NCBI RefSeq assembly: GCF_009728465.1
Contig: NZ_WOCD01000005.1
Coordinates: 806,001-870,000 of the forward strand
DNA length: 64,000 nt
Direction of reading: 5' to 3'
From: Psychrosphaera haliotis
GTDB taxonomy: Bacteria; Pseudomonadota; Gammaproteobacteria; Enterobacterales; Alteromonadaceae
In this document: piece by piece, positions 4,399 to 41,393 of the stretch
Layout of the letters: each line of letters begins with the position of its first letter
How positions within the stretch are numbered: position 1 is the first letter of the stretch
The notes under the pieces: model-generated
Databases searched by the model: none
Seen by the model: the letters and a program-made list of their open reading frames with translations, nothing else
What the model was told of the DNA's origin: nothing
Translations under genes and position numbers: made by a program

Positions 4399-4427
4399 GA
4401 CAGTTATGTTACTGTATGGAAAAACAG
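4388..4427 (+). promoter_or_regulatory. Two LexA (SOS) boxes
   Basis: Two CTG-N10-CAG palindromes are present: 4388-4403 (CTGTATATACTGACAG) and 4412-4427 (CTGTATGGAAAAACAG). The E. coli lexA gene also has two boxes in this position and is autoregulated. The second box ends one base before the proposed lexA start codon and contains the GGA ribosome-binding sequence. Confidence 0.9.
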
Positions 4428-5048
4428 ATGATGCGACCACTTACTGCTAGACAATCAGAAATATTAGATCTAATTAGAGATTCAATTACCTCAACAGGTA
4501 TGCCACCAACTCGAGCTGAAATTGCTAAAACGTTGGGCTTTAGGTCGGCTAATGCCGCTGAAGATCACTTAAAAGCACTGGCTAAAAAAGGTTTCATAGA
4601 AATGTTACCTGGCACCTCTAGAGGCATTCGTCTAACAGAAGAAGTCGCTAACGACGATCCAGGTTTACCGCTTGTTGGTAAAGTTGCAGCCGGCTCGCCA
4701 ATATTAGCAATGGAGCACGTTGACCGTCATGTAAATATTGATCCAGCTATGTTTTCACCAATGGCCGACTTTTTGTTGAAAGTTGAAGGTGAAAGTATGA
4801 AGGATATTGGTATTTTAGACGGCGATTTATTAGCTGTTCATAAAACTCAAACCGCCAGAGATGGTCAGGTTGTAGTTGCAAGAGTGGAAGAAGACGTTAC
4901 GGTTAAAAGACTTGAGCGTAAAGGTAGCAAGGTTATATTGCATGCTGAAAACCCTGAGTTCTCACCAATTAACGTAGACCTAAACTACCAAGACTTTGCC
5001 ATTGAAGGATTAGCGGTAGGCGTTATTCGTAATTCGTCGTTAATGTAA
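4428..5048 (+). CDS. lexA: LexA repressor (SOS response)
   Basis: LexA has an N-terminal winged helix-turn-helix ([15 protein letters not shown], with [23 protein letters not shown] as recognition region) and a C-terminal self-cleaving serine protease domain. Numbered from MRPLTARQ, the cleavage site is Ala87-Gly88 and the catalytic pair is Ser122 and Lys159, equivalent to E. coli 84/85, 119 and 156. Family N-termini begin at M(R/K)-LT-RQ, so the start is ATG 4428 or 4431. An upstream in-frame ATG at 4416 lies inside the second SOS box and is unlikely to be used. It represses SOS genes until RecA filaments stimulate cleavage. Confidence 0.96.
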
Positions 5049-5080: not shown

Positions 5081-5500
5081 TTAACGAATCGTCGAAAACT
5101 CTTTTAAAAGCTTCACGGGCGGTGACATGCCGTCCACAAGCTTATCTTCATCAATGGCATCAATAATGTCTTTAATGGTTTGAATGTTTTTAGGCTTATC
5201 GCATTCTAAATTCACCATATTCATAGACCAGCGGCTAAACAGTCTATATTCAGCTGGCTCAAAATAGATATTTCGTACTTTAGTGTGCCTGCTGTCTAGC
5301 GCTATTTTGTCATAAAGTGCCTGAACACTTTTTTTATCACCTTCCAGTACCTGTAAAAACATTCCACCGTTGTAAATCAAATTGCCGGTAATATCTTGGC
5401 TTGAGTTATTGTTCTTAGCGTTCACTAATAAGTCAGTTAACTCTTCATTGGAAAAAGGCTGAGTAGCACGGCTAATATAAACAAGTTGATAGAGTGACAT
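5081..5500 (-). CDS. Short BLUF-domain blue-light receptor
   Basis: The 139-residue protein is a stand-alone BLUF domain (FAD-binding blue-light sensor) with a short C-terminal helical cap. The key residues fall at the same numbers as in cyanobacterial Slr1694: Tyr8, Asn31/Asn32, Gln50 (MFLQVLEG) and Trp91 (RWSM). Light rearranges hydrogen bonding between Tyr, Gln and the flavin. No output domain is attached, so it must act through a partner protein that is not identified here. It lies 91 bp downstream of the TonB/TPR operon on the same strand. A perfect 13-bp inverted repeat sits directly before its start. Confidence 0.92.
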   Translation of the reverse strand: MSLYQLVYISRATQPFSNEELTDLLVNAKNNNSSQDITGNLIYNGGMFLQVLEGDKKSVQALYDKIALDSRHTKVRNIYFEPAEYRLFSRWSMNMVNLECDKPKNIQTIKDIIDAIDEDKLVDGMSPPVKLLKEFSTIR

Positions 5501-23996: not shown

Positions 23997-26900
23997 CTAA
24001 TCTGATGATCTAGCGGCACCGCCATAAGCATCAACATTGCCACCCGTTATATTAGATGAGTCATCTGAAGTTGCAGACGTTGTTTTATACTTTCTTTTAC
24101 GACGGAACATGCCTTTAAAGTCTTCTAAACCCATATACATACAAGGGACAAGAATTAGCGTAACCAAGGTCGCAAATAATACTGCAAAGCCTAATGCAAC
24201 CGCCATTGGCACTACAATTCGTGCCTGTAAGCTAGTTTCAAACATGATTGGTAGTACACCAACAAACGTAGTGATAGAGGTAAGCGTAATTGCTCTAAAT
24301 CTTACACAACCTGCATCTGTCACGGCTTGAATAACCGACTGACCTTGTTTGCGTACTTGGTTAACATAATCTGTCATGACCAAGCTGTCATTGATAACAA
24401 CACCGGCTGCGGCAATCAGTCCAAAAGTAGACATCATGCTTAAGTCCATACCAAATAAGTAGTGACCCCAAACTGCACCAACAAAGCCGTATGGAATAAC
24501 CGACATGATGATTAAAGGTTGTGCATAACTCTTAAGGGGCACGGCTAACAAAATGTAAATCATTAGAAGGCCTGCAACAAAGAACATGATTTGTTCGTTT
24601 TGCTGAGCTTGCTCTTCTTCAATTGAGCCACCTAGTTGCGTTTTAACGCCAGGGAAGTTTTCCGTTAGTTGTGGCAGTAAGTCATCCTTAATGCGCTTAA
24701 CTACTTCGTTAGGTTGTACAACCACTTCGTCAATGGAGCCATAAATGTAAACACTACGGAATCCATTTTCGCGACGAATGTAACTGATACCAGGTTTTTC
24801 AGTTAGTGTAACAACATCACCTAACATTACTTCTTTACCAGAAGGTGTAGTAACAATTGCGTATTTCAATTCGCTAAACTGCTCTCGCGTCATTTGCGGG
24901 TAACGAACCATGACTCGAATTTCTTCGCCATCACGTAATACTCGTTGAGCTTCTCCACCAAAGAAACTCGCGCCAATTTGACCAGCGATAGATTGTAAAG
25001 ATAATCCAAGATCGTAAGCCACTGGTTTCAAATCAAGTTGGATCTCTTTACTCGCCGGGTCAATTGTCGAGCTGATGTCGAATAAACCAGGTTCTTGAGA
25101 CAACATTTTTATAAATTCACGGCCAGCAACGTTAAGTTGCTCTAAGCTTGGGCCATATAGCAAGTAACCAAAGTCACCACCACCTTGGCCGCCACCGCCA
25201 CCGCCCAACAATTGGTCTTGAACCGTAATGGATTTTACACCAGGTATAGTAGGCATTGCTTCACGCCAACGTCGAGCCACTTCAAATGTGTCGTATGGAC
25301 GTAACTCTTCATCAACAAGAGGAATAACTACACGGCCAGAGCTTCTATCTTGGTTAAACGCTAGAATATCACGGACCATTTTTTGACCAGTTTCTTGTTC
25401 AATTTCACGGTCAATACGTTGAACCATAGCTTCAATTTTTTGAATCGCATCAATAGTTTGCTGGTCAGAAACCGTTTGATTCATCTCAATTTGAATATCT
25501 GGGAAGTCGTGCGGCACTTTAGGCTGTGGCACAAAACGTACGTGGCTGCCTGCAATCATGGCAATACTGATTAAAAGCATACCAAAGAACGCGGCCATTA
25601 CCGCCCAACGCCATTCAACACATTTGCTCAAAAAGCCTTTGTATTTAACGTTAACAAAGTTATTAAAACGTTTGTTAAAACGAGCTCTTAAGCTGTTTTC
25701 TTTTACTGGACTAAATTTTGTGTGCGCTAAATGGGCTGGCAAAATAAGCTTAGATTCTACCAAGCTGAAAATTAAGCAAAACACGACCACTGTTGCAATG
25801 TTATAAAAGAATGAACCTTGTGGCCCACTAGAGGCTAAGAATGGTGCGAATACCGCAATGGTAGTCAGTACGCCAAAGGTCGCTGGTGTTGCCACTTTTT
25901 TAGCACCACGAACCACGTTTTCTATGCCGCCGCCGTGTTTTTCAATTTCGGTATAGGAACTTTCGCCAATGACAATGGCATCGTCCACCACAATCCCTAG
26001 CACCATAATAAATGCGAAAAGTGATAATACGTTAATGCTAACGCCAAATACTGGCATCATCATCACCGCTCCTAAAAAGCAAACCGGTAAACCGATCATT
26101 ACCCAGAAACGCTAATCTAAAGCGCAGGAATATGGTTAACATGAGTGCCACTAAAATCGAACCTTGGAATAGGTTTGATAACATCATGTTCAATCTGGCT
26201 TTAAGGTAATAAGTCATATCAACTAATACCTTTAATTCCATTCCCGCTGGCAACGTTGGGTTACGTTGTTCTAAATAGCTTTTAACTGAGTTAGAGACGG
26301 CAATAGAGTTTTGGTCTTTAGTGGCGTTAACTTGAATATAAACCGAGTTTTGGCCAGAAAATTTGTTATATCTGACACCTTCAGTGAATCCATCTTTTAT
26401 AATCGCCACATCTTCTAAAAGTACTCTAGAGCCGTTGTTACCAATTTTAATTGGAATAAGTTTAAACTCATCACCGTTGTAGTACTGGTTTTCTATTCTA
26501 ACGGCAATTAATCCAGCATCGGTGCGCAATTGACCAGCAGAGTAGTTAGCGGAATAACGGCTAATAGCCTGTGTGATATCCGCCAGCGTTAAATTGTATT
26601 TCCGTAATTGGTCGGGCTGAATTTCAATGGCAATTTCTTCAGCAGGTGCGTTAACCGTAACCAAGGACACGTTATTAAGCTGCAGTAGCTCGTCTTCAAT
26701 TTGTTTGGCAACAGGCTTTAGCTCTTCAACGGTCATGTCACCAACTAGCGACATTTCTATTACTTGCTGATTAAACTCTATTTGCCGAACATTAACGGGC
26801 TCCATGGCCGCGGGGAAGGTAGCGATACTATCAACTCGCATTTTGACCTTGTCTAATACTTCGGCCAAATCTTTGTCTGGATCTATTTCTAAGGTAACTC

Positions 26901-27195
26901 TACCTGAGTTTCGAAATGCATTGGTGTACATCTCTTCAATCTCAGTCACGTCTTTTAATGATTCTTCAATTTTTATCAATATGCTTTCTTCAATTTCTTG
27001 AGGAGAAGCACCACGATAAGCCGCACTCACCTGAATATAGTTAATCTCAATATTCGGGAACATTTGGCGCTGAATAGTAAAGTAGCTAATTAAACCCATG
27101 ACGATAATAAATATCATCATTAAATTAGCGGCCACTGAGTTATTCGCAAAAAACGCGATTAAACCCGTTTCTTTTTTTTGTTGAACGTCAGACAT
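23997..27195 (-). CDS. RND efflux permease, reading frame interrupted by one base
   Basis: Two overlapping frames (385 and 700 residues) form one HAE1-type RND transporter of about 1065 residues with 12 membrane helices. The first part has the N-terminal helix (NSVAANLMMIFIIVMGLIS) and porter domain and reaches FLRFRLAF; the second continues WVMIGLPVCFLGAVMMMP with the proton-relay Asp pair in GIVVDDAIVIGE. The break is GAAAC at 26106-26110 (plus strand); GAAC restores the frame. It exports hydrophobic compounds by proton antiport, with the adaptor encoded 5 bp upstream. No outer-membrane channel gene is adjacent. Confidence 0.88.
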
Positions 27196-31317: not shown

Positions 31318-32914
31318 CTAGTGGTCAACACCTTTAGACTTCAAGTAGTCATCGTAGCTACCGCGGAAATCAATGATCTTGTTGCCTTTGATTTCTAGAA
31401 TACGGTTTGCCAATGAAGAAACAAACTGACGGTCGTGAGAAACAAAGATTAACGTGCCTTCGTAGTTCTCAAGTGCCATGTTTAAAGACTCAATAGATTC
31501 CATATCCATGTGGTTAGTTGGTTCATCGAGTAATAAAACGTTAGGTGTTGCCATCATCATTTTACCAAACAACATACGACCCTGCTCACCACCAGATAAA
31601 ACTGTTACCGACTTTTTAATATCGTCAGATGAGAACAACATACGACCTAAGAAGCTACGTATGCTTTGCTCATCGTCATTTGGACGACGCCATTGACTCA
31701 TCCAGTCAAATAAATTCATGTCAGTTTCAAAGTCAGCCGCGTGATCCTGTGCGTAATAACCCATTTTCACGTTTCTCTGACCATTTAACAAAACCAGCGT
31801 CAGGCTCAAGATCGCCTTGTAATGTACGTAACAGCGTTGTTTTACCCGCGCCGTTTTCACCAATAATGGCAATGCGCTCACCAACATCAACCATAAGGTT
31901 AAAGTTTTCAAATAAAGGACCTTCATCAAAACCTTTTGATAAACCTTCAATTTCAACAGCTTGACGATAAAGTTTTTTCTCTTGCTCAAAACGAATAAAT
32001 GGATTCACACGACTAGAAGCTTTTACTTCATCTAACTTGATCTTTTCCATTTGTTTTTGACGAGAGGTAGCTTGGCGCGCTTTTGAAGCGTTAGCAGAGA
32101 AACGTGCAACAAAGGATTTTAACTCATCAATTTGGGCTTTTTTCTTAGCGTTATCATTGATCATACGAGCACGAGCTTGTGTGGCCGCTAACATGTATTC
32201 GTCATAGTTACCTGGGTAAACGCGAAGCTCACCGTAGTCTAAGTCAGCCATGTGAGTACATACTGAGTTTAAGAAGTGACGGTCATGCGAAATGATGATC
32301 ATGGTTGAGTTACGTTGGTTAAGAATGTCTTCTAACCAGCGAATTGTGTCGATGTCCAAGTTGTTGGTTGGTTCGTCGAGCAATAAAAAGTCTGGTTCTG
32401 AAAACAGCGCCTGAGCAAGTAAAACACGTAATTTAAAGCCAGGCGCAACTTCGCTCATTAATCCGTAATGCAACTCAGTACCAATGCCAACACCTAGCAG
32501 TAATTCGCCTGCAGATGATTCAGCTTCATAACCGCCCATTTCTGCAAATTCAGTTTCTAAGTCCGCTACTTTCATGCCGTCTTCTTCAGACATTTCAGGT
32601 AAAGAGTAAATACGGTCACGTTCTTGTTTAACGTCCCATAACTCTTGGTGGCCCATGATAACGGTGTCTAGCACTGAATATTCTTCAAAACCAAACTGAT
32701 CCTGGCGAAGCTTACCTAAACGCTCACCTTCACCGTAACTTACATTACCACCTGAAGGCGCTAGTTCATCGCCAAGGATTTTCATAAACGTTGACTTACC
32801 ACATCCATTTGCGCCAATTAAACCGTAGCGGTTACCGTTACCAAATTTAACCGAGATATTTTCGAACAATGGCTTCGCGCCAAATTGCATTGTGATGTTT
32901 GCAGTAGTAATCAC
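31318..32914 (-). CDS. ybiT: ABC-F ATPase YbiT, reading frame interrupted by one base
   Basis: The N-terminal frame has the first ABC domain (Walker [13 protein letters not shown], Walker [14 protein letters not shown]), the linker ([16 protein letters not shown]) and the second Walker A ([13 protein letters not shown]), and continues to VKWSE. The other frame resumes [20 protein letters not shown] with the second signature ([13 protein letters not shown]) and [19 protein letters not shown]. The break is GTTTC at 31771-31775 on the plus strand; GAAC on the coding strand restores it. The joined protein matches YbiT, a ribosome-associated ABC-F protein without membrane helices, in sequence and length (about 532). 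Confidence 0.92.
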
Positions 32915-33965: not shown

Positions 33966-34595
33966 CTAATCTAAGTCAATGAGTGATTGATACGCTTTTG
34001 AGTACTCAAATTCTTTTACTAGATCCACAATCTGATCGTACTTACGGCAATTTTTTTCATTCAAAATAGAAATAAGCAAATTAATAAAGGGTTGAGTAAT
34101 GAGTTCATGGTTATGCAATTTAGCTCTCAAAGAAACCAGCATTTCAGACAAATCTCCATCCACAGTTGCAGGCACTTCATTTTGCTTTTTTTGATTCAAG
34201 CTTAAAACCTGAATACAATCCGTAATACTCGAGCTTACACATTTATATAGAGGTTCAAACGACAGAGTTTCAATGTCTATTCTTTGGGTGATTTGCAAAT
34301 CAAGTTCAGTGCTAATCTCGTTTAAACGTTGTAACCCAAGTGCGCCAGAGGATCCTTTTAACGTATGGATTAACGCATGAACCTCAGGGCCGTTATTGAT
34401 TTTGATGGCTGTTTTTAATTCGTCGTTAAAAGACTCATATTGTTGAACAAACATTTCCAAAATTAGTAGATATGTCTCTGGCTGACCAAGTTCATTAATG
34501 CTTGCTAAACCAGGTTGAAGAACGTTTAAAAGATCTGGGTAAATAATAGGCGCGACATTATTGGCGCCAATATTAGAAGTTTGGTGTGTGTTCAT
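33966..34595 (-). CDS. Histidine phosphotransfer (Hpt) domain protein
   Basis: The 209-residue protein has an Hpt four-helix bundle with the phosphorylatable His77 in HALIHTLKGSSGALG. The C-terminal 80 residues resemble a second helical unit without a His motif. It lies 59 bp downstream of a response regulator-GGDEF gene on the same strand and close to the divergent hybrid kinase, which lacks its own Hpt domain. The natural inference is a phosphorelay from the kinase receiver through this Hpt to the regulator. Confidence 0.85.
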   Translation of the reverse strand: MNTHQTSNIGANNVAPIIYPDLLNVLQPGLASINELGQPETYLLILEMFVQQYESFNDELKTAIKINNGPEVHALIHTLKGSSGALGLQRLNEISTELDLQITQRIDIETLSFEPLYKCVSSSITDCIQVLSLNQKKQNEVPATVDGDLSEMLVSLRAKLHNHELITQPFINLLISILNEKNCRKYDQIVDLVKEFEYSKAYQSLIDLD

Positions 34596-34654: not shown

Positions 34655-35581
34655 CTAAATCGCCGCGAACCAATCATTAGACATCGCGTTATTGCGACCA
34701 CTTTGTTTAGCTTTGTAAAGCATGTCGTCTGCGCTCGCTATCAGCTCTACTATATTGTACGAGCCACTTAAAGTGTCGCTAATGCCAACGCTCATCGTGA
34801 CTAAGTTAGACACTTCTGAGTACTCATGTGGAATTGCCTTATCGATTAAAGCGACACGTAGTTTATCGGCAAACAATAACGCACCGCTAGCCGGCGTATT
34901 ATATAAAATGATGGAAAACTCTTCACCGCCCACTCTAAATGCAAAATCAGATGGACGTCGACACTCCGACTTTATTGCTGCCGCTACATCACGTAAACAG
35001 GTGTCCCCTTGAGGGTGGCCATAATTGTCGTTATATGCTTTAAAGAAGTCGATATCTAAGGTGAGCAATGAAACAGGTACGCCTTCTCGTTCTCCACGTT
35101 TTAACTCAAGCTGCAGTTGGTTATCAAATGCGCGTCGATTGCCAAGTTCTGTTAAGGCGTCTACATTTGCGTAATGAGAAAGAAGTTTTGTTTTACGAAG
35201 TTGTTGCAATTGAACGTTAATTCTAGCCGCTAATACATCGGCATTCACCGGCTTATAAATGTAGTCGTTGGCACCTATAGATAAACCTTTTGCCTCTTGT
35301 TCATTTGAGTGATGGCTGGTCATAAAGACAATACTTAAATTGTCGTTAAACTCATGGTTAGAACGAATTTCACGGCAAAGATCGATACCGTTGCCATCGG
35401 GTAGATTTATATCAAGAAGCACCAAATCAATATGTTGGTTGGCTAATACCTTACAGGTATCAGCGCTGTTTTTAGCAATAAAAAGCTCGTAATCAAAGTG
35501 CTGTAAATGACTAATAACCACCTGAATTTGATTTGGATCGTCATCAACAATAAGTATTTTTGCACTATTTTTATTTATCAT
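34655..35581 (-). CDS. Response regulator-diguanylate cyclase (REC-GGDEF)
   Basis: The 308-residue protein has an N-terminal receiver (acidic pocket DDD at 13-15, phosphoacceptor Asp57 in LVLLDINLPDG, Thr88 and Lys110) and a C-terminal GGDEF domain with an intact GGEEF (218-222). An RxxD inhibitory site (209-212) lies exactly five residues upstream. It should make cyclic di-GMP from two GTP when phosphorylated, with product feedback. It is divergent from the binding-protein/kinase operon (about 208 bp between the starts) and followed by the Hpt gene. Confidence 0.94.
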   Translation of the reverse strand: MINKNSAKILIVDDDPNQIQVVISHLQHFDYELFIAKNSADTCKVLANQHIDLVLLDINLPDGNGIDLCREIRSNHEFNDNLSIVFMTSHHSNEQEAKGLSIGANDYIYKPVNADVLAARINVQLQQLRKTKLLSHYANVDALTELGNRRAFDNQLQLELKRGEREGVPVSLLTLDIDFFKAYNDNYGHPQGDTCLRDVAAAIKSECRRPSDFAFRVGGEEFSIILYNTPASGALLFADKLRVALIDKAIPHEYSEVSNLVTMSVGISDTLSGSYNIVELIASADDMLYKAKQSGRNNAMSNDWFAAI

Positions 35582-35789: not shown

Positions 35790-36977
35790 ATGCGATTTTT
35801 ATTCATAACGCTTATTTCGTATTTATTACTGATAATTAGCCCTCATTCCTACGCGAAAGATCCCTACATTATTGGTTTAGATGCTGACCTTTCAGCGGTT
35901 GCAAAAGATGGCGGTATTGCAATTCAAAGAGGAGCGCAAATAGCGATAGAAGAAATTAACGCGCAAGGCGGCGTGCTGGGTAGACCATTAAAATTAGTGA
36001 GCAAAGACCACAGAGGTAATCCTGCTCGCGGTAAACACAATATAAAAGCATTTGCGGCGACGCCTAATCTAATTGCCATACTCGGTGGCGTGCACACGCC
36101 TGTAGTTCTACAAGAACTAGAATTAATCAATCAATACAAAATCCCATTTTTAATTCCATGGGCTGCAGGAACGCCAATTATAGACAATGGTTTTGAGCCT
36201 AATTATGTATTTCGACTTTCTATTCGCGATGAACAAGCTGGTTCTGTATTAGTAAAGGAAGCGAAAGCGGAAGGTCACCAGAAAGTGGCATTGCTTTTAG
36301 AGCAAACTGGTTGGGGACGTTCAAATCAAGACTCCATTTTAAAAGCGAGCCTTGAACAAGGGATAAACGTAACGCATGTTTCCTGGTTTAATTGGCGTCA
36401 GAAATCCATGAAAAATGAGCTTACCAGAATTAAAGAAAGTGGTGCTACAGCTATTATGCTCGTGGCTAACGCACCAGAGGGCGCAACAATTGTTAAAGAG
36501 ATTCTTAAGTCGCCTGAATTTAAAGCGCTGACAGTTTACTCGCACTGGGGCATTGCTAGTGGTCAATTTACCGAAAGCTTTAAGCCTGAAGAGTTACTAA
36601 CGGTGAATTTGTCGGTATTACAAACTTATAGTTTTATTACGCCCACAAACCCATTATTAAATAATAAAGTGTTGCGCAGTTATGCCAAAAAATTTGATAA
36701 AAGCGTGACCGCCGAAAGCATAATTAGCGCGCCTGGTGTAGCGCATTCCTATGATTTAATTCATTTATTGGCAGCAGCAGTAGAGCTAGGCAATTCAGTT
36801 GAATCTGCTAACATACAAACAAGTTTAGAAAACATTAAATCATTTAAAGGTTTAGTGAAGGAATATAAGCCGCCATTTTCTCCAGCTAATCACGACGCGC
36901 TCATGTCACATGATTATTTTATGGCTAAATATAACGAGTCAGGATTTTTAGTACCAAAAACTCATGAAGAGAAATAA
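35790..36977 (+). CDS. Periplasmic ligand-binding protein (Leu/Ile/Val-type type I fold)
   Basis: The 395-residue protein has a signal peptide (about 1-22, SPHSYA) and the type I periplasmic binding fold of the branched-chain amino acid and amide family (IGLDADLSAVAKDGGIAIQRGAQIAIEEINAQGGVLGRPLKLVSKDHRG). No ABC permease or ATPase genes are nearby. It overlaps the next gene, a hybrid kinase, by 14 bp, so it is more likely a receptor subunit that presents ligand to the kinase's periplasmic domain than an uptake component. Ligand unknown. Confidence 0.88.
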   Translation: MRFLFITLISYLLLIISPHSYAKDPYIIGLDADLSAVAKDGGIAIQRGAQIAIEEINAQGGVLGRPLKLVSKDHRGNPARGKHNIKAFAATPNLIAILGGVHTPVVLQELELINQYKIPFLIPWAAGTPIIDNGFEPNYVFRLSIRDEQAGSVLVKEAKAEGHQKVALLLEQTGWGRSNQDSILKASLEQGINVTHVSWFNWRQKSMKNELTRIKESGATAIMLVANAPEGATIVKEILKSPEFKALTVYSHWGIASGQFTESFKPEELLTVNLSVLQTYSFITPTNPLLNNKVLRSYAKKFDKSVTAESIISAPGVAHSYDLIHLLAAAVELGNSVESANIQTSLENIKSFKGLVKEYKPPFSPANHDALMSHDYFMAKYNESGFLVPKTHEEK

Positions 36978-39852
36978 GCCGCTTTATAAAATATTAGTAA
37001 AACAGGCAATGCCCAAAGTCATGTCAATGGCTCTATTGGTAAGCGTTGTTTTGTTTGTTAGTTTCTTTCTATTTATTCAAGATCAGGTGAACAACAAGCA
37101 CCGGGCTCAGTTGGAGCAAATAGAAAAAATTGCCGTCAATAATATCGACAACATTACGGTTCAAGTAGAAAATCTCGCAAAAAACGATCTCATCATAAAT
37201 AGCTTAATTGACTATGAGCAACGTGAAAGCTATCTATCTGTTTTTTTTCAGTCACTCAAAATTACCGACAGTTCCGATATCGCCATTGGTTTTCTAAATT
37301 TTAATGCTGAACCAATCGTAGTTAAAAACTGGACCTTATTTGAAATAAATAGTGACGCATTTAGTTGGAAGCCAGAAGTCTTTGAGCAAGGCAAAACAAA
37401 TGTTGATGTTACCAAGCAGGGTATTTTAATCGCTGCGCCAGTTATGTATGGCGATATGGCTGAAGGTGCCATCGTAGTTTATGTAAAGTCTTTGCAAGAT
37501 GTCATCTCCTACTCATCTAGTTTAGGCGTTCAGGTATTGGTAAATGATGAATATGAAGTTATGTTCAGTTCTCAGCCAGAACAACTCCCTGTTGGCACTT
37601 ATATTAGTGAAAAAAAATTATCGGGCACTTTTTCTGTAAAGTCAGATGGCCGCTGGTGGCGAGCGTTTAGCGTAGAGTCATTAACAACGGCTTATCAAGA
37701 TGTTTTACAGCTGTTTGTTATGGTGTTTTTTTTACTTATGGTTGTTATTTTTGCGACTAACTATAGTGCGAGAATATCAGCCAAAATTGCCAGCCAAGCT
37801 TTAAAAGCACTTCGTGACAGCATCAGTGAAGCCAGTAAGGGTCGTAGCCCAATTAATCAGCCAGTATCAAAAAGAGAACCCAGTGAAGTAGTTGCGATTA
37901 AAGCGTCAGTGAACTTCTTACTACATGATCTCTTAAGCACATCTTTATCACGAGATCGCTTTGAGAGTGTAATTGATTCAATGTCTGAACCTTTATTGGT
38001 ACTTGATCACAACTTTAATGCGGTACTTCAAAATAAATCCATGACTAACTTTGCAAAAGAGTATCGCGTTAGCATGCCTGACGATATTAACCTTATTTTT
38101 CCTCAAGAAACCTGGCAAGACTTAGCTGCGCACAATAAAGTTGAAATAGATTACTCAATGTACGGTACGCTTACTGTCAAACCATTAATATTGGAATGGT
38201 TGTTAAATAAATATATCAGTGATGGCCAGGAAATTGGCTATGTATTAGTGGCGTCAGACTTAACCAAACAAAAAGACTTATTGTTTGAATTAAAAATGAA
38301 AAACAAAGCCATTGATGAAGCTAGTACCGCTATCATTATTAGTGACATGCTAAATGGTGATCAGCCTATTGTTTATGCAAATAGAGCGTTTTTTAGGTTA
38401 ACGGGTTATGACTCAGAAGAAGTGATGGGGCAAAACTGTCGCTTTTTACAAGGCCCAAAAACAAGCCCCGTCAAAGTAGACTTGATGCGTAAAGCAATCT
38501 CCAATAGAGAATCATTGGAAATAACGTTAATTAATTACCGCAAAGACAAAACGCCTTTCTCAAATAGTTTAACTCTCAGTCCTATCGTTAACGACGCCGG
38601 GTTAGTGACGCATTATATTGGGTTTTTACATGATGTTACTGAATTACAGCGAGCTGCGAGTTATTTAAAGCAGGCAAAAAACAAAGCGGTGCAGTCTGCA
38701 CAAATGAAATCTGAATTTTTGGCTAGTATGAGCCACGAAATTAGAACGCCAATGAATGGCGTAATAGGCACTCTAAGCTTAATGTTAAATGAAGAGCTAG
38801 GTGAGCAACAACGCGAGTATGCAACTGTCGCAAAAGATAGTGCGCAGTCACTATTGTCTCTTATTAACGACATCCTCGACTTCTCTAAAATTGAAGCCGG
38901 TAAATTAGGAATTGAAAAGCACGAGCTGGATATTGAATCACTTACGCGGTCGGTCTACCGAGCGTTTAAATCTGAAGCAGAAGCGAAAAAGTTGACGTTT
39001 AACATTGACCTGTCAGGTGTCAAAGAAGCCTTTTTAATAGGTGATGGTGGTCGATTAAGACAAGTCATGAACAACATCATTGGTAACGCACTTAAATTCA
39101 CCACAGAAGGCGAAGTGAGCGTTGCAGTTGAAACTGAATCAAGTAACAGCGATGGCATTGTTATTTGTACTTGGCATGTTACCGATACCGGTATTGGTAT
39201 TAAGAAAAGCCGCCTTAAGTCTATTTTTGAGTCTTTTACGCAAGCTGACTCGTCAACAACAAGAGAGTTTGGTGGTACAGGTTTAGGTTTGTCTATTTCT
39301 AAGCAACTGTGCCAGCTAATGGGTGGTGATATAACAATTCAAAGTGATCTTGGTAAGGGCAGTACCTTCTCATTTTCAGCTCAGCTAGGCTTGAGTGACA
39401 ATGCGCATAATATTTTATTTACTAAATTGGAAGAGCCTAAACCGTTTGAGCGAGTCAACATGCGAGCTTTGCTTGTTGAAGACAATATGATTAATCAAAT
39501 GGTCGCTAAAAAGATGCTATCCGAAAGTGGCGTTGAAATAGAAGTTGCCATTAATGGAGCGAAAGCATTAGAGCGCTTGATAGCGAATACAGATAAAGAA
39601 TTTGATGTGATTTTCATGGATTGCCATATGCCAATATTAGACGGATATGACGCAACTCAAGCTATTCGTAATGGTGACGGTGGTAATCAATATTTGGATA
39701 TCCCTATCATTGCGATGACAGCAAATGCCATGAAAGGAGACAAAGAAAAGTGTTTTGCCGCTGGAATGGATGACTATATGTCAAAACCAATTGATTTGAG
39801 TCTACTGCAAAATTTGCTTACAAAATGGCAACATAAAATTAAACCTGAGTGA
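36964..39852 (+). CDS. Hybrid sensor histidine kinase with periplasmic domain, LOV domain and receiver
   Basis: Domains in order (962 residues): membrane helix about 20-40; periplasmic sensor about 41-247; helix about 248-266; HAMP-like linker; a degenerate PAS about 330-435; a LOV domain about 446-562; HisKA with His591 (MSHEIRTPMNG); HATPase (NIIGNALKFT, DTGIGI, GGTGLGLS); and a receiver with Asp886 (VIFMDCHMPILDGYDA). The LOV domain has the photoactive Cys492 in GQNCRFLQG and the flavin-contacting Asn524 and Asn534, but Leu555 where the signalling Gln belongs. It overlaps the binding-protein gene. Expected inputs: a periplasmic ligand and possibly blue light; output through Hpt. Confidence 0.92.
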   Translation: MKRNKPLYKILVKQAMPKVMSMALLVSVVLFVSFFLFIQDQVNNKHRAQLEQIEKIAVNNIDNITVQVENLAKNDLIINSLIDYEQRESYLSVFFQSLKITDSSDIAIGFLNFNAEPIVVKNWTLFEINSDAFSWKPEVFEQGKTNVDVTKQGILIAAPVMYGDMAEGAIVVYVKSLQDVISYSSSLGVQVLVNDEYEVMFSSQPEQLPVGTYISEKKLSGTFSVKSDGRWWRAFSVESLTTAYQDVLQLFVMVFFLLMVVIFATNYSARISAKIASQALKALRDSISEASKGRSPINQPVSKREPSEVVAIKASVNFLLHDLLSTSLSRDRFESVIDSMSEPLLVLDHNFNAVLQNKSMTNFAKEYRVSMPDDINLIFPQETWQDLAAHNKVEIDYSMYGTLTVKPLILEWLLNKYISDGQEIGYVLVASDLTKQKDLLFELKMKNKAIDEASTAIIISDMLNGDQPIVYANRAFFRLTGYDSEEVMGQNCRFLQGPKTSPVKVDLMRKAISNRESLEITLINYRKDKTPFSNSLTLSPIVNDAGLVTHYIGFLHDVTELQRAASYLKQAKNKAVQSAQMKSEFLASMSHEIRTPMNGVIGTLSLMLNEELGEQQREYATVAKDSAQSLLSLINDILDFSKIEAGKLGIEKHELDIESLTRSVYRAFKSEAEAKKLTFNIDLSGVKEAFLIGDGGRLRQVMNNIIGNALKFTTEGEVSVAVETESSNSDGIVICTWHVTDTGIGIKKSRLKSIFESFTQADSSTTREFGGTGLGLSISKQLCQLMGGDITIQSDLGKGSTFSFSAQLGLSDNAHNILFTKLEEPKPFERVNMRALLVEDNMINQMVAKKMLSESGVEIEVAINGAKALERLIANTDKEFDVIFMDCHMPILDGYDATQAIRNGDGGNQYLDIPIIAMTANAMKGDKEKCFAAGMDDYMSKPIDLSLLQNLLTKWQHKIKPE

Positions 39853-39908: not shown

Positions 39909-41393
39909 GTGAACAAAACAAAACTTAGTATTGCCTGTTTATTAACGCTGTCAGTATTGACCGGCTGCTCTAAAAGCTCAAAAAGTTCAGATGAGCAAAT
40001 AGTTATTGTTACGGAAGACAAGTCTGTCGCGGTAAGCGGTAAGGCAATTGATGGATATATCGTAGGCGGCACCGTATTTTTAGATATTAATGGCAATGGG
40101 ATCGCAGATGCTAGCGAGCCACAAAAAATTACCGAAGAAGGTGGGGATTACCTTTTTGACGTACCAGAAAAAGATGCGGCTTGCTTAGCGTATTCAGCCA
40201 TCATTGTTGACGTACCCGTTGGTGCGATAGATGAAGGCTCGGAAGAAGAAGGCGTTGCTCGACATGAAGTTACAGACCCTTATCAAATTGTATTACAACC
40301 TACCTTTGAGCCTATAACTGAAGCTGACTTTACCAATGGCTTAGTTCGTAACATTTCTCCTTTAACTACTGTTATATGGCAAGCAATAGAGCAAAACTAC
40401 CCTCGTGAAATTGAAGAAAAACACTGTGATTATCTTAAAGAGCACAATGAAGCCGTTACAGAACTAAAAACTGAAATAGAAGATACGCTCAGAGGGTTAG
40501 TTTCGTATTACAATTTATCTGCAGAGCAGATGTACGCTGACTTTATCGCTGACAAAGACTCCGATGCGTTTCATATTGCGCAGGATATTGTTAAGGGCTT
40601 AAAGGCTGCTTATAAACTTAAAACTGAGCTTAGGGCTGAATACCCAGAAGGTGAAGTTCGAGTTTTTGTATCTAGAGACCAAGAGAAAGATGAATACTTT
40701 AATGTAGAAGATGGTTGGTACAGAGACGTAGTGGTATTTCATGATACGGGTTACTTTTCAGAAGACGTTAAGTTAGTTAGTGACGAGCAACTGAATGAAG
40801 TGGATTATGTTCTGACACACTTAGACCGAACAGACAAAGCTTGGAACGACCAGGCCTTAAACGGTGAGCTTTCTGTCCGTAAAGACGTATATCGAGACCC
40901 AAATGGCGAATATAGATGCAGCAATATTGAGCGAATAGAGTTTAAAGAGAATGACATAAGATACGAACTTTCAAACTCATTTGGTAGCTTAACTTTTGAT
41001 ACATTTGAAGAGTGTGTGAATGATAGTCTTGATGATCCATATGAAAGAAGTTTTAGAATTTCTTATGACATCGACTCTACTTATTATTTTGGCGTTTTCT
41101 TTTTCAGAGAAGCACAAAGCCGATTTACCGAATTAGCAGAGTGGGTTGATGTGGAAAACAAAACCGACTTGGACTCGTCTGAGATGATTGATGTATTAAA
41201 GCTTATGCCTTATCGATGGGATGATGAAGTATCAATAGACACCTCATTGTGGCGCAAGCGTAAAGACCAAGGCAACGTACAGCTTGATGTTGAAAACGGC
41301 ACAGACTGGACTCGCGCCACCACACAGAGCGATGGCACAACAGTTTATGAGTGTAGCGCTGACGGTGAAAACTGGACAAGCTGTGAAGGCTAA
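39909..41393 (+). CDS. Exported lipoprotein of unknown function
   Basis: The 494-residue protein has a lipoprotein signal (LLTLSVLTGCS, Cys20), a Ser/Lys linker, and an SdrD-like beta module (IDGYIVGGTVFLDINGNGIADASEPQ), a motif often seen in calcium-binding exported proteins. The rest is acidic, without recognised repeats. GTG at 39909 follows AAAGGAA. It stands 57 bp after the kinase gene and converges on hupE. Confidence 0.6.
   Translation: MNKTKLSIACLLTLSVLTGCSKSSKSSDEQIVIVTEDKSVAVSGKAIDGYIVGGTVFLDINGNGIADASEPQKITEEGGDYLFDVPEKDAACLAYSAIIVDVPVGAIDEGSEEEGVARHEVTDPYQIVLQPTFEPITEADFTNGLVRNISPLTTVIWQAIEQNYPREIEEKHCDYLKEHNEAVTELKTEIEDTLRGLVSYYNLSAEQMYADFIADKDSDAFHIAQDIVKGLKAAYKLKTELRAEYPEGEVRVFVSRDQEKDEYFNVEDGWYRDVVVFHDTGYFSEDVKLVSDEQLNEVDYVLTHLDRTDKAWNDQALNGELSVRKDVYRDPNGEYRCSNIERIEFKENDIRYELSNSFGSLTFDTFEECVNDSLDDPYERSFRISYDIDSTYYFGVFFFREAQSRFTELAEWVDVENKTDLDSSEMIDVLKLMPYRWDDEVSIDTSLWRKRKDQGNVQLDVENGTDWTRATTQSDGTTVYECSADGENWTSCEG

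Follow-up and report, generated by a model that had tools for sequence, protein, structure and literature searches.

About 350 natural LOV receptors without the active-site glutamine, most of them with leucine or isoleucine in its place, were reported by Dietler et al. (2022; PMC9098866), who found this residue to be generally dispensable. In that study, most glutamine replacements in YF1 kept the light response and proline, histidine, tryptophan, tyrosine, and arginine abolished it; YF1 Q123L remained under the control of light, with its amplitude in vitro about halved and its recovery slowed 10-fold, and AsLOV2 Q513L recovered ~22-fold more slowly with a similar light-induced structural change. 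One natural glutamine-less receptor, a LOV-GGDEF-EAL protein of Mesorhizobium loti with methionine at the site, was shown to be light-regulated (PMC9098866). Here, we describe a hybrid histidine kinase of Psychrosphaera haliotis that has leucine (Leu555) at this position of its LOV domain and is encoded in a 64,000-nucleotide stretch of contig NZ_WOCD01000005.1 (positions 806,001 to 870,000), which we call the window and number from its first letter. An earlier note on this DNA had presented the natural Q-to-L kinase as a new case, one that would challenge the textbook view of a glutamine flip passing light from flavin to protein. The 2022 paper had already put the class in print and answered the challenge, with YF1 Q123L bearing the identical exchange in a LOV-histidine kinase. 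By analogy with that variant and with AsLOV2 Q513L, the window kinase is probably light-sensing, in a weak and slow manner.

YF1, an engineered fusion of the YtvA LOV domain and FixL, resembles the window kinase in joining LOV to a histidine kinase and, as Q123L, in the exchange of glutamine for leucine. Its structure (4gcz) is the second-best entry for the window LOV domain by both sequence and fold. YF1 is, however, engineered and lacks transmembrane segments, whereas the window kinase carries its leucine naturally, is membrane-bound and hybrid, and adjoins a binding-protein gene. LuxP-LuxQ and TorT-TorS are binding-protein-coupled hybrid kinases, and the locus is like theirs in having a gene for a periplasmic binding protein beside that of a membrane hybrid kinase. 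The NCBIfam models TorS and LuxQ match the kinase half at 360 of 676.5 bits and 339.6 of 1200 bits, respectively, far under the curated cut-offs; the highest-scoring stretches begin at residues 569 and 537, respectively, and leave out the presumed periplasmic domain. To our knowledge, neither LuxQ nor TorS has a photoactive LOV domain. Brucella LOV-HK, which is among the top fold matches, and Caulobacter LovK share with the window kinase a LOV input to a histidine kinase; a review (PMC6798134) describes photoreceptor histidine kinases as mostly soluble and cytosolic, unlike the window kinase with its two hydrophobic segments and presumed periplasmic domain. The natural LOV-delta-Q receptors of the 2022 paper, among which leucine and isoleucine predominate, have a complete signature with the glutamine replaced, as does the window kinase, but the tested M. 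loti protein is, as cited there (PMC9098866), a diguanylate cyclase with methionine rather than a membrane hybrid histidine kinase with leucine. No family of binding-protein-coupled LOV kinases is described in the titles or abstract openings of the matches listed in our literature search.

The kinase and its LOV core

The kinase gene (36964..39852, + strand, as are all features within it) is an intact open reading frame of 962 amino acids with an ATG start. Hydropathy of the window protein alone places hydrophobic segments at approximately residues 14–43 and 240–272, followed in order by a linker (residues 281–440), the LOV domain (residues 445–562; 38296..38649), HisKA (38704..38901) with the phospho-acceptor motif SHEIRTP at residues 590–596, HATPase_c (39040..39384) with the motifs NIIGNALKF, DTGIGI, and GTGLGL, which we take to be the N, G1, and G2 boxes, and a C-terminal receiver (REC; 39469..39816) with the motif IFMDCHMP at residues 883–890. 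The phospho-acceptor, ATP-binding, and receiver motifs are all intact, and the protein classes as a hybrid histidine kinase. The stretch between the two hydrophobic segments is presumed to be a periplasmic domain; it had no Pfam match and a weak PDB profile match to 3by9 (E 0.25), and a model of it built from the single sequence was not usable (predicted local distance difference test score, pLDDT, 48).

We read the residues of the LOV core from the DNA: the adduct-forming Cys492 (TGT, 38437..38439), Asn524 (AAT, 38533..38535) and Asn534 (AAT, 38563..38565), equivalent to AsLOV2 N482 and N492, and Leu555 (TTA, 38626..38628), whose assignment to the signalling-glutamine position also draws on orthologue comparison. 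As the earlier note had counted, the last three fall at +32, +42, and +63 from Cys492, matching C450/N482/N492/Q513 of AsLOV2 (numbering as in PMC9098866), and AsLOV2 chains match kinase residues 456–565 over equal lengths (query 17–126, chain 14–123). That note's description of an otherwise complete LOV core was borne out as well. The cysteine in its GxNCRFLQ stretch, the flavin-binding asparagine pair, Arg493, and Arg509 are all retained, nine of the nine residues in the signature by which Dietler et al. (2022) selected LOV receptors are present, and solely the glutamine of the last strand is absent, with Leu555 in its stead. In that paper, at least eight of the nine residues together with the lack of glutamine define a LOV-delta-Q receptor, and the window domain falls within this class by its sequence; because the glutamine was reported to be dispensable, its loss does not exclude a LOV domain (PMC9098866).

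The domain matches PAS_9/PAS, and PDB LOV sequences match the kinase with E values down to 7e-29, a strength that excludes a chance likeness; the structure of AsLOV2 Q513L itself (7pgz) matches at E 4e-22. An AlphaFold2 (AF2) model of residues 430–579, built with 16 relatives, had a mean pLDDT of 93.2, and in a Foldseek search with this model the best 50 PDB fold matches listed were all LOV proteins or LOV fusions, headed by 9vf7, YF1 (4gcz), and Brucella LOV-HK. Thus, residues 430–579 are predicted to adopt a PAS/LOV fold.

Preserved flavin contacts without the light-relay residue could also suit a flavin pocket turned into a redox or constitutive module that no longer senses light, as the earlier note had proposed, and Dietler et al. 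(PMC9098866) favor redox flavoproteins as the possible ancestors of LOV receptors. The adduct cysteine, however, which the kinase keeps, would be superfluous in a redox sensor, and most Gln-less LOV proteins examined in other work continue to respond to light (PMC9098866). We noticed no sequence sign of redox coupling, although no search was aimed at such signs. This proposal stands as an improbable explanation and is not the default reading.

Orthologues and the origin of Leu555

A profile of kinase residues 1–440 matched 36 of 395 genomes of the family, the window's own included. We dropped G060, which matches profile positions 222–442 alone and has no LOV match, leaving 35 orthologues; two partial matches from an order-level search (G578 and G596, positions 246–441), likewise without a LOV match, were not counted. 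G238 (523-amino-acid open frame) and G123 (863 amino acids) were read in their longest open frames alone, owing to stops. In these two orthologous kinases (loci L131 and L130, respectively), the stops lie inside the sensor match, and the genes are either pseudogenes or products of assembly errors.

The adduct cysteine is present in 26 of the 35 orthologues, with glutamine in 25 of these and leucine solely in the window kinase. Nine orthologues lack the cysteine, and of these one keeps the glutamine and eight have lost it (phenylalanine in four, cysteine in three, isoleucine in one), an association between the two losses with a Fisher p of 3e-6 when kinship is ignored. The alignment with homologues that the earlier note had recommended thus shows no conservation of leucine: all 25 of the other Cys-keeping orthologues have glutamine, including the sister orthologue G005, which is 80% identical. 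We rejected leucine as a feature of a clade, as it is private to one of 35 orthologues. In a tree computed without the LOV domain, the window kinase pairs with G005 (support 97/97) and falls among sequences that bear glutamine, so Leu555 most simply arose on the window's terminal branch, as far as the sequences indicate; the Cys-less state requires at least two changes on the same tree, which is rooted at its midpoint, includes long rows (G261, G186, and G255), and has a G238 row only 37% filled.

A private residue raises the question of an error in the sequence or its assembly. Two other genes of the window, encoding an ABC-F ATPase and an RND transporter, read as split frames, and the estimated genome completeness is 88.9%, so the assembly may hold errors. 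These suspected faults are frame breaks, however, unlike clustered substitutions. Among four orthologues whose codons we read, the glutamine codon is CAG in G005, G007, and G031 and CAA in G026; TTA differs from these by three and two bases, respectively, and the frame and both flanks are intact, which makes a read error very unlikely. Alignments have no gap near the site, ruling out a glutamine shifted by an insertion or deletion. The earlier note had named, as a refutation, a leucine both unique and erroneous: it is unique among the orthologues, but we regard an error as highly improbable.

Wider samples place the substitution in context. The class search covered 369 genomes, which, like the 395 of the family search, were drawn evenly from a larger group, and we read 72 listed stretches outside the window's genome, 40 with the cysteine and 32 without. 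Glutamine occupies the site in 39 of the 40 Cys-bearing domains (one of which, L135 in G031, is also among the 35 orthologues) and isoleucine in one, L148; the Cys-less, LOV-like domains are divided equally, 16 with glutamine and 16 without. A second sample of 29 loci was seeded with peptides of the kinase itself, including NYRKDKTP and HYIGFLHD. It held 21 Cys-bearing domains, 20 with glutamine and one with threonine (L048 6001–6396, Methylococcaceae), and eight other loci (glutamate in two, glutamine in one, site unreadable in five); with HYIGFLHD among the seeds, leucine was found at none of the 24 readable loci. Glutamine is therefore missing from 2 of the 61 Cys-bearing domains of both samples, a rough rate because both were found by similarity to this kinase.

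Retained light sensing or decay

We favor, with moderate confidence, the reading that the LOV domain is a natural LOV-delta-Q blue-light input, attenuated and slow-cycling, in a transmembrane hybrid kinase paired with a solute-binding protein. By analogy with the engineered variants, blue light most likely remains a stimulus for the kinase, with a weak response and a lit state that persists. The LOV domain would hold flavin mononucleotide (FMN), and blue light would produce a Cys492–flavin adduct and protonation of N5. Leu555 itself would be inert, and the signal would be carried not by a glutamine flip but by water that gains access to the pocket, the route suggested for AsLOV2 Q513L, and would be relayed to the beta sheet and then to the coiled coil leading to HisKA. 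The response would be weaker than in Gln-bearing relatives, shifted ~8 nm to the blue, and slowly reversed; the domain would thus integrate light and act as a dim-light input modulating a kinase that the solute-binding protein drives as well. Slow recovery gains support from Ile458 (38335..38337, + strand), which lies at the site of YtvA V28, in a stretch that aligns with YF1 without gaps, and matches V28I, a change that slows recovery ~10-fold in the YF1 system (PMC9098866). V458I is a change with respect to both same-genus orthologues, which have valine, but across the family isoleucine occurs at this site more often than any other residue (12 of 25). We also count in favor of light sensing the other light-related genes of the genome, namely a BLUF protein in the window and three photolyase-family matches.

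The main rival is decay of light sensing, in which Leu555 would be an early step of loss in a kinase driven by its solute-binding protein, with the LOV domain remaining as a structural linker. We consider this somewhat unlikely, although the family offers a precedent: as described above, 9 of the 35 orthologues have lost the cysteine, eight of them together with the glutamine and by at least two changes on the tree, which suggests that light sensing is dispensable in this kinase. Several observations weigh against retained light sensing or its retuning. The uniqueness of Leu555 means that no conservation argues for selection. Adding V28I to Q123L did not make the receptor any more sensitive in the data cited (PMC9098866). 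With G007 as the outgroup, the whole kinase has 69 private changes in the window lineage compared to 34 in G005 (p 0.001), with the largest excess in the linker (residues 281–440; 37804–38283), at 13 compared to 2 (p 0.007), both p values being uncorrected for six tests; the neighboring genes show no excess (window/G005: solute-binding protein 30/30, Hpt 11/12, REC-GGDEF 12/22). This kinase-wide excess fits relaxed constraint as well as it fits retuning. In the same genus, Arg493 is histidine in G005, at a position substituted in 6 of the 26 orthologues with the cysteine, and Asn534 is cysteine in G007, the sole change of this asparagine among the 26, so the flavin pocket is altered in all three same-genus species. 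Together, the excess of private changes and these pocket substitutions make relaxation of the light input a serious rival.

Other results speak against decay or in favor of a retained light input. The window kinase keeps Cys492, both asparagines, Arg493, Arg509, and GxNCRFLQ, more fully than G005 or G007 does. Its LOV domain shows no clear excess of private changes (11 compared to 8 in G005, p 0.65, a test of low power), and in the class sample glutamine loss is not tied to cysteine loss, as half of the Cys-less domains (16 of 32) keep the glutamine. Residues 445–574 include 21 positions that do not vary among the other 25 Cys-keeping orthologues, and the window kinase differs at two of them, G529K and Q555L; lysine at the former site occurs in many LOV domains of the 29-locus sample, though one of its seed peptides contained that lysine. 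The ratio of nonsynonymous to synonymous substitution rates (dN/dS) was uninformative, because synonymous sites are saturated in nearly every comparison.

Gene neighborhood, output, and significance

The gene for a periplasmic solute-binding protein (35790..36977, +; Peripla_BP_6 by family match) lies immediately upstream and shares its last 14 bases with the kinase gene, and each of the 34 other orthologues has a homologue of it next to the kinase. Among solved structures, its closest relatives are binding proteins of the amino-acid type, a general likeness that gives no specific ligand. This adjacency, together with the presumed domain between the two hydrophobic segments, resembles the arrangement in binding-protein-coupled kinases of the LuxPQ/TorTS kind. 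Divergent from the pair lies a gene for a REC-GGDEF diguanylate cyclase (34655..35581, −; motif GGEEF), a possible output, followed by an Hpt phosphotransfer protein (33966..34595, −; motif HTLKG, His77), a possible relay. The Hpt and REC-GGDEF block also stands beside the kinase in G005 and G007. At E 1e-5, no Hpt match was found in the other 21 wide orthologue loci; L127 has a REC-GGDEF match at a distance of ~6 kb from the kinase, and matches to GGDEF alone are present in L125, L129, and, close to the kinase, L124. From the gene neighborhood, a phosphorelay from the kinase to Hpt to REC-GGDEF is plausible, in which phosphate would pass from the kinase REC domain through Hpt to the cyclase and alter cyclic di-GMP (c-di-GMP).

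Downstream of the kinase, a 494-amino-acid lipoprotein-like open reading frame without a Pfam match (39909–41393, +) precedes a HupE/UreJ-like gene and is not there in G005. The ABC-F ATPase gene (31318–32914, −) reads in two frames, of 393 and, downstream, 223 amino acids, that are 97–98% identical to a 523-amino-acid protein of G005, and is probably an assembly frame break or a recent pseudogene. The RND (ACR_tran) transporter (23997–27195, −) reads as two overlapping frames that jointly cover most of one family model, probably also a frame break. The BLUF-domain protein (139 amino acids; 5081–5500, −), a second kind of blue-light receptor, is encoded beside a gene (4416–5048) that we take from its sequence to be LexA-like. 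Besides the photolyase-family matches, the genome has two more LOV-like PAS domains, at G000:C2:67025-67390 (L002) and G000:C3:1181301-1181651 (L003), with proline at the cysteine site and glutamate at the glutamine site. A rhodopsin search of eight genomes gave no match, but neither did any control, so the result is uninformative.

The less expected aspects of this family are a LOV domain in a membrane kinase beside a solute-binding protein gene in every orthologue examined and a cysteine that has changed at least twice. More speculatively, and doubtful on present evidence, the family may be an evolutionary series within a two-input receptor, from LOV domains with glutamine through one with leucine to Cys-less forms that usually lack the glutamine too, in which Q555L, perhaps with V458I, would have adapted the light input to slow photon counting, by which a chemical signal is gated on its way into c-di-GMP. 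If so, the order and the cost of losing each photochemical residue would be measurable in a single kinase. If light control is kept, this would be a natural leucine-bearing LOV histidine kinase with glutamine-bearing orthologues that are 65% and 80% identical, a clean set in which to test the worth of the glutamine in nature.

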